Positions 29,200-59,037 of a stretch of DNA of 64,000 nucleotides are shown here, in pieces. Source of the DNA: Gammaproteobacteria bacterium (GTDB lineage: Bacteria; Pseudomonadota; Gammaproteobacteria; Pseudomonadales; Pseudohongiellaceae); contig SHZK01000002.1 of the NCBI GenBank assembly GCA_009692305.1, positions 1 to 64,000 of the forward strand, read 5' to 3'. The position numbers and the translations under genes were made by a program. How positions within the stretch are numbered: the stretch's first letter is position 1; every line of letters starts with the position of its first letter. The notes under the pieces are model-generated. The model was not told where the DNA came from and made no database searches. It saw only the letters and a list, made by a program, of their open reading frames with translations.

Positions 29200-29345
29200 G
29201 GTGCCGGGTGGCTATGTGTGGTGTAGCTGCATTAAAAGACCAGCGCCGAGCGCAGAAAAATGACCGTCCTTTGGGCATTTTTAGGAGAGAGGGCACCCTG
29301 GAAGGCCGGGGTCTGCAGCAACACCACACATAGCCACTCGGCGCC
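29200..29345 (+). ncRNA. Structured element 2 (candidate RNA), 146 bp
   Basis: Arms 29200-29230 and 29315-29345 are complementary at 28 of 31 positions (arm core GTGGCTATGTGTGGTGT). Inside, a hairpin AAAAATG/CATTTTT (29256-29262 with 29276-29282) holds loop ACCGTCCTTTGGG, followed by GAGAGGGCACCCTGGAAGG. The same architecture and length recur at 36352, 58730 and (minus) 58459. Orientation set by the core. The arms have no sequence in common with the other copies except near their outer ends, yet pair. Confidence 0.6.
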
Positions 29346-36232: not shown

Positions 36233-36252
36233 CAAATATTGGCCAGCTAACT

Positions 36253-36297
36253 AAAGGTGTCAGATTTATTTTTCAAAATAGATCTGACACCTTTTTT
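36253..36297 (+). terminator. REP-like hairpin terminator after the NHL lipoprotein
   Basis: AAAGGTGTCAGAT (36253-36265) pairs with ATCTGACACCTTT (36282-36294) and runs into T6. A degenerate extra half (AGATCTGAAACTTTTTT) follows at 36319-36335. Confidence 0.8.
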
Positions 36298-36351
36298 GTT
36301 TTGTTGATTTTCGAATTAGATCTGAAACTTTTTTCTTCCTAGGAACTGCAA

Positions 36352-36498
36352 GCGCTGGGTGAATGGGTATTGTGACACCAGCGATCAAAGCGCAGCACCG
36401 ACTGACCGAGGAAGACCGCTTTACAGGGCTTCCGACCGAGGGAGGGCACCCTGGAGGGGTGCGCGCTGCAGAGGTCACAAAACCCATTTACCCGGCGC
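36352..36498 (+). ncRNA. Structured element 1 (candidate RNA), 147 bp
   Basis: Arms 36352-36376 and 36474-36498 pair at 22 of 25 positions (outer GCGC, inner TTGTGAC). Next inside, CAGCG pairs CGCTG. The core 36387-36446 is identical over 60 bases to 58765-58824. It contains the hairpin GGAAG/CTTCC (36410-36414 with 36429-36433) with loop ACCGCTTTACAGGG, then GAGGGAGGGCACCCTGGAGG. ORFs across it are by-products. The architecture recalls compact RNAs of the HEARO/omegaRNA kind, but no associated nuclease is in the window, so the class is open. Confidence 0.6.
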
Positions 36499-36580
36499 GA
36501 TCTATCAGACTCAATACATCCGGTGCGATCTCGCAGACTCAACAGACCCAAAGCGATCTATCAGACTCAATAAACCCAAC
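36497..36580 (+). repeat. 28-bp direct repeat, 3 units, 3' of element 1
   Basis: Units start at 36497, 36525 and 36553, each opening GCGATCT and sharing CAGACTCAA; a fourth degenerate unit may follow to about 36608. It begins on the last bases of the element's 3' arm. The same period and GCGATC head occur after element 3. Confidence 0.85.
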
Positions 36581-36641: not shown

Positions 36642-37271
36642 ATGAATCTCGAAAAACTAAAACGCGCTGAACGTATTTTTATGCATCGCTATCCGGGAGG
36701 ATTCGGACATCCGGAGATGATGGCGCTTGGTAAAAAACACAAGATGGACAAGATGACCACGGCCGTGCAGGAGCGCTTCGCAAAGAAGCAATTCCGGGAT
36801 ACCGCAGACACACTGCAAAGCCTGATCAAGATAGTTACATCTTCATCCATGGTATCCATATTCGAGAAACCGAAGTTCCGGGATTTCGTCAATGGCCTCG
36901 AACCGAAGTATCAGAATGCGCTGGTGAGCGGATTGAAGGAACAACTGCATGGAGATGAACAGAAAGGATTCGAGAAAGTACTGGGAGTATTGCAGACCGG
37001 CAAAATGGCGAAGTGGTCGCTGATCAGTATCGTGCCAGTGTATTTCCACCCGCAACACGATGTGTTTGTAAAACCGACAACTGCCAAAGGCGTAATTTCT
37101 TATTTCGCACTGGAGTCACTGCACTACAAACCACAACCGAGTTGGGCATTCTATGCAGAGTTCCGCGACCTGATTAACCAGATGAAAACCAGGGTTGATG
37201 CGACGCTGTCACCGAACAACGCCGCATTTACCGGATTTCTGATGATGAGTCTTGCCGCTACACTCGAATGA
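36642..37271 (+). CDS. Hypothetical cytosolic protein, 209 aa
   Basis: No signal or membrane segment. Opens NLEKLKRAERIFMHRYPGGF, a lysine- and helix-rich domain with KKHKMDKMTTAVQERFAKKQ, then a C-terminal part with VYFHPQHDVFVKPTTAKGV and YYKPQPSWAFYAEFRD-like aromatic clusters (actual FALESLHYKPQPSWAFYAEF). Codon use and length look real. I do not recognise the family; it has the look of a conserved hypothetical of Gammaproteobacteria. It stands alone, convergent with the NIPSNAP gene. Confidence 0.6.
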   Translation: MNLEKLKRAERIFMHRYPGGFGHPEMMALGKKHKMDKMTTAVQERFAKKQFRDTADTLQSLIKIVTSSSMVSIFEKPKFRDFVNGLEPKYQNALVSGLKEQLHGDEQKGFEKVLGVLQTGKMAKWSLISIVPVYFHPQHDVFVKPTTAKGVISYFALESLHYKPQPSWAFYAEFRDLINQMKTRVDATLSPNNAAFTGFLMMSLAATLE

Positions 37272-58225: not shown

Positions 58226-58304
58226 CGTGTAACTCAGTGGTCTGTGTGTTGCCCAGTATGGCAGATTCAACGTTGGGGCTTGTTGATTTAATTCTATTGT
58301 TATT

Positions 58305-58492
58305 GTTCCTTCGAGTCGCACTTCGGGCTGTCAGCTGTAACCATTGTTACTGTTCCTTCGAGTCGCACTACGGACTGTCAGATTCACTCATTGGTAGGGT
58401 TCCTTCGAGTCGCACTTCGGGCTGTCACCTGTAACCATTGTTAGGGTTCCTTCGAGTCGCACTACGGACTGTCAGCTCCAACCACTGGCGCC
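58305..58492 (-). repeat. 47-bp direct repeat, 4 units, 3' of element 4
   Basis: GTTCCTTCGAGTCGCAC starts at 58305, 58352, 58399 and 58446. Units alternate CTTCGGGCTGTCA and CTACGGACTGTCA. The unit at 58446 contains the element's own 3' arm, so on the minus strand the array is successive copies of that arm plus spacer. Confidence 0.9.
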
Positions 58493-58596
58493 GGCCCTCC
58501 GGGCTGCCCTCTCTGCGGAAAAAGCCCTGTAAAGCGGTCTTTTTCCTCGCTCGGCGTTGCGCCTTTGACGTGGTCTCCGCTGTCAGTCCGTAGTGC
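58459..58596 (-). ncRNA. Structured element 4 (candidate RNA), minus strand
   Basis: Arms GCACTACGGACTG (58459 on) and its complement (to 58596) pair over 17 of 18, then ACCAC pairs GTGGT inside. Hairpin stem GGAAAAAG/CTTTTTCC (58517-58524 with 58539-58546) has the same loop as elements 1 and 3 but a longer stem. On the minus strand the core ends GAGAGGGCAGCCCGGAGGG. Its 5' side faces element 3. Confidence 0.6.
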
Positions 58597-58729
58597 TAGT
58601 AGATCGAGCACAAACTGGTGATTTATTGGCTTCGAAGGGAGAGTTATTCGAAGGGGAAGTTACTCGAGTTTCGTATTTGGTATTTCGCGTTCGAGTTTTG
58701 CTTTTCAAATTGCCTTATGGGAACTGCGA

Positions 58730-58876
58730 GCGCAGGGTTAGGGGATTGTGTTGGCTCGGCGATTAAAGCGCAGCACCGACTGACCGAGGAAGACCGCTTT
58801 ACAGGGCTTCCGACCGAGGGAGGGGACCCCGGAGGGGGGCAAGCTGCCGAGCGGACACAAACCCCTAACCCGGCGC
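58730..58876 (+). ncRNA. Structured element 3 (candidate RNA), 147 bp
   Basis: Arms 58730-58760 and 58846-58876 pair at 27 of 31 positions. Core identical over 60 bases to element 1 and equal in length. The upstream flank GGAACTGC-A/G-AGCGC is shared with element 1. Core tail is GGGGACCCCGGAGGGGGG. 58597-58729 between elements 3 and 4 holds nothing recognisable. Confidence 0.6.
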
Positions 58877-58987
58877 GATCCAGCCACATCATACAAACCA
58901 ACACGATCCAGCCGCATCCTACCAACCAAAGCGATCCAGCCGCATCACACAAACCAGCACGACCCAGCCACATCAAATACACCAACA
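58876..58987 (+). repeat. 28-bp direct repeat, 4 units, 3' of element 3
   Basis: Units begin at 58876, 58904, 58932 and 58960, each CGAYCCAGCC-R-CATC with an A/C-rich second half. It starts on the last base of the element's 3' arm. No unique spacers as in CRISPR. Confidence 0.88.
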
Positions 58988-59037
58988 CGAACGAATAGCC
59001 TTTCCAATCCAGAACCCACTGGATTATTCTTCGCTCT

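Follow-up and report, generated by a model that had tools for sequence, protein, structure and literature searches.

Copies of ERIC elements are generally similar in sequence throughout, and the IS200/IS605 elements and RAYTs operate by strand-specific recognition of secondary structure in single-stranded DNA (ssDNA). As a system of comparison we use the ssDNA ends of IS200/IS605 together with the RAYTs (PMC6006769). REPs are palindromes of 20–40 bp (PMC3733652), and for REPINs PMC3116915 describes inverted doublets, extragenic spread, compensatory changes and singlet remnants. Here, we describe an apparently unnamed family of folding repeats of about 150 bases, which occurs in dozens of copies in the intergenic gaps of some marine bacteria and of which no description was found in the open-licence literature (titles and abstract starts). 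We posit, at a probability of roughly one half, that these repeats are a non-autonomous mobile family working like REPIN/BIME, whose unit consists of two divergent structured heads.

Copies in the analysed window

The first-pass annotation of the window (i.e., the whole stretch of 64,000 nt analysed here) had placed four structured elements at 29200-29345, 36352-36498 and 58730-58876 on the plus strand and 58459-58596 on the minus strand; a check of the sequence returned the same positions and strands. The element at 29200-29345 is a single copy (R1 covariance model match at 29215-29336, 101.9 bits), with type B stem feet GGTGCCG...CGGCGCC followed by GCTCGAAG, and an AAAAATG/CATTTTT inner hairpin. 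That at 36352-36498 is a single copy of type A (R1 match 36367-36489, 122.6 bits) with a GGAAG/CTTCC inner hairpin, and it continues into a 28-nt tandem repeat tail (36490-36577, plus; 3.1 copies by Tandem Repeats Finder), which in the sequence starts with the element's own 3′ foot, GGCGCGATC. The remaining two form a divergent pair. Its left member, 58459-58596, has a type C stem and the inner hairpin GGAAAAAG/CTTTTTCC (R1 match 58464-58585 minus, 74.8 bits), and its right member, 58730-58876, is of type A (R1 match 58745-58867 plus, 125.7 bits). Associated with the latter on the plus strand are the 5′ foot tag of type A-like copies, GGGAACTGCGAGCG, at 58719-58732, which occurs at 27 distinct places among the loci examined, the apical hairpin P4 with loop ACCG...AGGG at 58787-58812 (columns 44-69 of alignment A3), and the apical hairpin P5, CCCC-GGA-GGGG, at 58827-58837 (A3 columns 84-95).

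Flanking the type C copy on its 3′ side is a 47-nt tandem array (58296-58484, minus; Tandem Repeats Finder, 4.0 copies, 84% matches) whose units include the 3′ stem arm, and the type A copy of the pair has a 28-nt tandem tail (58876-58990, plus; Tandem Repeats Finder, 4.1 copies). These 47- and 28-nt repeats in the 3′ flanks of the window copies are locus-specific, and within them lies the foot or stem arm of the element itself. Another palindrome, of the GGGGTCAGACACC or GGTGTCAGATTTATT type, which resembles hairpins associated with RAYTs, lies just upstream of the 36352 copy (36250-36330), stands in place of the inner hairpin in locus L016 (~1570-1605) and fills the pair spacer in L003 (~1400-1485).

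The annotation had credited the 29200 and 58730 copies with 60 identical core bases. These bases exist and are shared by the 36352 and 58730 copies; the 29200 copy has at most 14 consecutive bases in common with any other. As it had claimed, the stems pair internally, with 28 (29200), 25 (36352), 27 (58730) and 22 (58459) Watson-Crick pairs in the outer 31 terminal positions, counted ungapped, and the inner hairpin changes as a pair among the window copies. Just two 147-nt spans anywhere in the window have at least 24 of the 31 terminal pairs, namely those at 36352 and 58730.

Family size and spread

The annotation's count of four copies was a large underestimate. A DNA search of the assembly from which the window comes (3.08 Mb in 60 contigs; hereinafter the source genome) gave 38 matches at E <= 10, the weakest at chance level. 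We aligned 24 source-genome copies with MAFFT, having left out five copies with insertions beforehand; a second MAFFT alignment of 21 copies, from which three type C copies had been removed, was trimmed (A3) and is the basis of the covariance model R1. R1 finds 44 matches in the source genome at E <= 0.1, the two weakest with 31.5 and 23.8 bits. Building such a model from the copies and searching related genomes, the course that the annotation had proposed, uncovered a family of dozens of dispersed copies.

Beyond the source genome, the distribution is patchy. Copies are present in 19 of 84 genomes of the genus, the source genome counted (R1, E <= 0.001 with stricter filters), and in 15 of 390 genomes and nine of 142 genera of the order (R1, E <= 1e-4), where only the best nine candidates per genome were scored and copy numbers are therefore lower bounds. 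A second model, R2, built from 134 aligned copies (alignment A6; 134 rows, 133 distinct), matched two of 369 genomes in a class sample: the source genome and one of another family, whose long-stemmed copy (L216) has a type I restriction specificity gene on one side and a Fic-domain gene on the other. Carriers thus fall in ten genera, nine from the order search and one from the class sample. G215, the only other genome of G360's genus in the set, has no copies at E <= 0.001. Among public contigs, a first exact pattern had no match and a second picked out 15 stretches, of which R1 confirms 12 and rejects three (L124, L125 and L128); the titles of the 12 name uncultured Gammaproteobacteria, a Pseudomonadales MAG and a Proteobacteria MAG. 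The repeat had no match in plasmids and one short 49-bit match in phages, covering 10% of the query; viral contigs gave four exact 16-mer matches, none with R2 and with R1 a single 22-nt match at E 0.16.

Arrangement and gene context

Copies often occur as divergent pairs. All 12 close pairs (starts less than 400 nt apart) among the 44 source-genome matches are minus-then-plus, as are 14 of 16 close pairs among 43 of the matches listed for congeners, the other two being one tandem and one convergent. The divergent pair also recurs in G130, G181, G209, G342, G360 and G461, whereas in G039 two copies some 240 nt apart lie on the same strand. In the source genome, 20 of the 44 matches are without a partner within 400 nt.

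The copies are mainly intergenic. With frames taken as the longest open frames, not annotated genes, 26 of 37 source-genome copies examined overlap no frame of 90 codons or more, ten overlap frames of 276-456 nt and one overlaps the edge of a 1224-nt frame. Fourteen of the 37 are between convergent frames, and their orientation relative to genes shows no clear preference. In genus g80, the copies of L143 and L145 follow an S1-domain gene and precede a gene of HU/IHF type (with L143 as the only locus scanned), and the pair in L143 is surrounded by a further long inverted repeat. In L136, the copy (1501-1629) is about 100 nt upstream of a 6S RNA gene (1725-1902, 101 bits).

A conserved core within stems of free sequence

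As written from the folds of individual copies, the structure of each (~150 nt) has a long outer stem, nearly free in sequence and 31 positions in median aligned length, followed inwards by a helix that contains a bulged A. A three-way junction then carries the two core hairpins, P4 with its ACCG...AGGG loop and a short P5 of CCCC-GGA-GGGG or similar. On their own strands, the window copies at 29200, 36352, 58730 and 58459 have RNA fold z-scores of -9.2, -7.0, -7.4 and -5.9 and DNA fold z-scores of -8.7, -5.7, -6.2 and -6.1, respectively, each beating 200 of 200 dinucleotide shuffles. The opposite strands of the four fold well too (RNA z -5.5 to -7.9) because palindromes must.

By inspection, the source genome has three stem types, A, B and C, with differing feet and stems, a core of one kind, and 3′ feet that look alike and are weakly shared. 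In type A and its relatives, the 5′ foot is marked by a sharp tag, GGGAACTGC[AG]AGCG, the exact form of which is found just upstream of only 19 of 134 A6 copies and thus marks one type rather than the whole family. Separately, a repeat of about 60 nt (ACT...GGCTTGA...AAGATTCACGA) is nested inside the P5 region of L012, L013 and L016 in the source genome, and the type B copies L015 and L021 are flanked by yet another repeat, CCGCCCGACTCG...GTGAC...ATCACCTCCGATCCGGG.

In A3 (21 copies), both sides have changed in 24 of 37 pairs, a number reached by none of 500 shuffles, and 87.5% of cells pair as against 70.4% when shuffled and at most 46.9% when slid. In A6, double changes affect 37 of 37 pairs, 89.0% of pair cells pair (60.9% shuffled) and the covariation is 0.676 (0.179 shuffled, at most 0.133 slid); A6 was fitted to the model and therefore leans towards it, while A3 was not fitted. 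Within single genomes, G360 has five copies whose stems extend over 30-47 aligned positions with 29-45 Watson-Crick pairs and whose mean identity is 0.73 in the core and 0.35 in the arms (0.27 for shuffled arms). Mean arm identity is 0.41 in G000, 0.42 in both G130 and G098, 0.52 in G181+G209 and 0.67 in G096. The 5′ arms pair with the 3′ arm of their own copy in preference to those of others. The arm pairing score in G360 is 30.6 with a copy's own 3′ arm and 5.7 with those of other copies (0 of 20 swaps reach the own mean), and in G000 (37 copies) it is 19.3 against 7.5 (21 of 1332 swaps). The corresponding values are 20.2 and 8.3 in G130, 22.0 and 9.4 in G098, and 19.2 and 9.6 in G096, the contrast being weakest in G181+G209 (17.0 vs 11.3; 22 of 156 swaps reach the own mean). 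Hence, the paired change noticed in the first pass is a genuine sign of a maintained fold, attested by covariation in A3 and A6 and by the arm swaps. Stem mutation without compensation, which the annotation had regarded as contrary to such a fold, does account for some of the changes between close orthologs (e.g., L076 vs L077). That each copy keeps its fold as its stem sequence drifts suggests mobile DNA that must fold single-stranded.

One strand folds

The defects of the stems are asymmetric between the strands. Among the stem pairs of 90 copies, there are 2158 Watson-Crick pairs, 159 G.T and 23 A.C, and 161 of the 189 other mismatches are purine-purine. When relatedness is controlled by grouping 133 of the 134 copies into 55 clusters, 135 distinct G.T events stand against 31 A.C, and one copy per cluster gives 74 against 25. 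Such an excess of G.T over A.C on one strand implies that it is this strand which folds, be it in the form of RNA or of ssDNA, and supports a strand-specific fold; neither a double-stranded palindrome nor arm-to-arm repair has reason to produce this asymmetry.

These data bear on the view that the copies are old palindromic insertions whose arms stayed complementary through palindrome-templated repair, i.e., template switching between arms, rather than selection for a fold. Repair of this kind is consistent with the G360 stems, which are near-perfect over 30-47 bp and unrelated in sequence within one genome, and with an orthologous site between the EF-Tu and ribosomal protein S10 genes (see below), where the arms diverge more than the flanks. 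However, it should be strand-blind, and what we see is a roughly fourfold excess of G.T over A.C (135 vs 31), other mismatches that are mostly purine-purine on one strand (161/189) and a core conserved in sequence. We consider it improbable; the asymmetry argues against templated repair as the full account, to which it may still have contributed.

Tolerance of G.T and a branched core would fit RNA as well, which counts against the REPIN-like reading. The main rival to that reading is a dispersed, possibly mobile family of structured RNAs, either small RNA genes or sense elements in transcripts, in which the plus strand would be transcribed, fold via the same three-way junction and act or spread as RNA. 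Its merits are the stems that are G.T-rich and A.C-poor on one strand only, the complex conserved core and the covariation over 134 copies; yet there is no consistent gene context, and the window pair, the sole pair scanned, has no match to a sigma-70-like promoter or terminator. This is a rival to be taken seriously, though we lean against it.

Orthologous sites

The site of the window pair was sought in 84 congeners, scoring three candidates per genome. Among the places listed, the flanking genes are adjacent only in G008, where the orthologous site is a short intergenic sequence without the unit. Flank alignments to this site (G008:C57) put the approximate extent of the unit, i.e., both elements, the spacer and both tails, at 58281-59005 in the window (no strand assigned), the exact ends being unreadable because identity is only about 70%. 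The site in G008 may be an unused site or the result of loss. No target-site duplication is demonstrable, the G008 empty site being too diverged to read, and this counts against the mobile-unit reading. A clean empty site was also sought in G215 for two G360 loci and rejected, as the neighbours are rearranged and nothing is readable. Of the links to an orphan mobile RNA or a non-autonomous ssDNA transposon offered in the first pass, the mobile and non-autonomous character is supported by dispersal, patchiness and the G008 site; the folded form may be RNA or ssDNA.

We also compared 25 loci, one used twice, across G096, G081 and G069, with flanks 89-95% identical. Six orthologous sites have copies in the same orientation (L076/L077, L190/L184, L192/L187, L195/L182, L198/L188 and L199/L189) and four in the opposite orientation (L193/L189, L094/L097, L191/L200 and L194/L181); L094/L097 and L195/L182 rest on one flank, and L197/L188, ambiguous at a contig end, was left out of the count. 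In L194/L181, the pair is inverted in situ over about 308 bp. The three single-head cases of opposite orientation could equally reflect differential loss of one pair member.

Copies between the EF-Tu and S10 genes are common to G059 (L088) and G079 (L114), with both flanks matched; a G008 copy (L080) matches this site on the S10 side only. The two heads at this site point towards each other (convergent), and the P4 hairpin of L088 is enlarged by about 80 bases. L088 and L114 are 0.85 identical in the core, 0.57-0.59 in the arms and 0.75-0.78 in the flanks. The retention of the core here is in keeping with the structured-RNA alternative, and its greater conservation relative to the stems could mean a host function. 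In six closer ortholog pairs, there is little contrast (pooling all seven gives 0.90 for the core, 0.89 for the arms and 0.80-0.88 for the flanks), so that a single old site is all that suggests purifying selection on individual copies.

Enzymes and known families sought

The annotation's statement that no transposase or nuclease lies alongside agrees with our scan of ten window ORFs, including the neighbours of all four copies, none of which belongs to such a family; the ORF at 36642-37271 has no family match. An HNH/RuvC-like (IscB/IsrB) ORF was found neither among these ten nor among 14 ORFs near other copies. The suggested HEARO/omegaRNA link is not supported: HEARO has no match at E <= 10 in the window or in the window pair alone, and none at E <= 1 in 17 relative loci. 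No Rfam 15 family exceeds its threshold on any copy searched, which tells against a structured RNA. Over the window pair, other families give two chance-level matches (E 8.7 and 9.7) that fall well short of their gathering scores, and sub-threshold matches over or beside other copies are likewise chance-level except for MIR844 (E 0.0008, 35.1 bits, gathering score 70), whose match is to a separate inverted repeat next to the L143 copy.

It is very unlikely that the family belongs to a known guide-RNA or transposon group, be it HEARO/omegaRNA, integron attC or a classical MITE with fixed terminal repeats. Such an assignment could draw on the stem-loop shape, the mainly intergenic location, the resemblance by inspection of the 3′ feet of the three types and the arms partly shared in G096 (0.67) and G181+G209 (0.52). 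Against it stand the absence of HEARO matches at E <= 10, attC-like boxes (GTTRRRY / RYYYAAC) at the stem feet in only one of 134 copies, and arms sharing little in G000 (0.41) and G360 (0.35; shuffled 0.27). The annotation had named a perfect match to a known MITE with a fixed terminal repeat as evidence against its reading; overall the stem arms are no such repeat, differing between copies in G000 and G360, though with the partial sharing in G096 and G181+G209.

A Y1 transposase beside the copies was considered and rejected: none of 15 Y1 loci examined from carriers has a copy within about 1.5 kb. At the genome level, a Y1 gene (E <= 1e-5) is present in 16 of 19 carriers and 33 of 65 non-carriers (Fisher p 0.016, relatedness ignored), a loose and weak association; three of the 19 carriers show no Y1 gene at this cutoff, and the sole Y1 frame of the source genome contains a stop. 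Reverse transcriptase (PF00078) was likewise set aside, occurring in four of 19 carriers and five of 65 others (p 0.20); it was not found in the source genome, which speaks against spread of an RNA by reverse transcription. Genes captured between distant heads were also inspected: L099, with heads 3.5 kb apart, has three ORFs without Pfam match and L165 a dienelactone-hydrolase-like ORF, with no transposase in either.

Under the preferred REPIN-like reading, an enzyme encoded elsewhere would recognise the core on one strand, as ssDNA, and copy or move the unit into intergenic DNA; single heads would be remnants of pairs. It rests on the dispersed family, the strand-specific fold with compensated stems and their length, the divergent pairs, the patchy presence, the G008 site lacking the unit and the pair inverted in situ, as well as on the lack of a clear orientation to genes and of a promoter or terminator match at the window pair. 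Points against it include that no enzyme was found, that none of the 15 Y1 loci has a copy nearby, that three carriers show no Y1 gene, that the source genome's Y1 frame has a stop, that some close pairs are not divergent and that the EF-Tu/S10 copies could have a host function. In a bolder version that we think unlikely, the family would represent a new class of mobile unit, with divergent three-way-junction heads of which one strand would be read by shape by some enzyme, stem sequence being free and pairing kept, and whose movement, at times with inversion in place, would involve no known transposase, reverse transcriptase or integrase family. The model, the 44 matches in one genome and the carriers in ten genera provide a test set for how bacterial intergenic repeats can be moved by shape rather than sequence, and add a well-supported structured element without an Rfam 15 match, frequent in certain members of an uncultured group.

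Comparison with known systems

Like HEARO/omegaRNA, the family is structured and mobile-element-like, but the window has no HEARO match at E <= 10 and its scanned ORFs no nuclease family. With ERIC/IRU, it shares the 100-150 bp size class, the intergenic location and the palindromic character; it differs from ERIC in that stems vary and the core is conserved. Recognition of the IS200/IS605 kind would explain the strand asymmetry, although there is no adjacent Y1 gene in the loci examined and the genome-level link is loose. The likeness to REPIN/BIME lies in being intergenic, multicopy and built of hairpins, with inverted doublets as the repeated unit. The differences are that heads here reach about 150 nt and are branched, their apical core being conserved, as against REPs of 20–40 bp; that the type A tag is GGGAACTGCRAGCG in contrast to the GTAG/CGTC-type REP tag, although by inspection a type C foot does contain GTAG; and that a linked RAYT (Y1) gene was not found in the 15 loci examined. 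Given the head size, the branched core, the foot tag and the lack of a linked RAYT in those loci, we regard the family as working like a REPIN without filing it as one.
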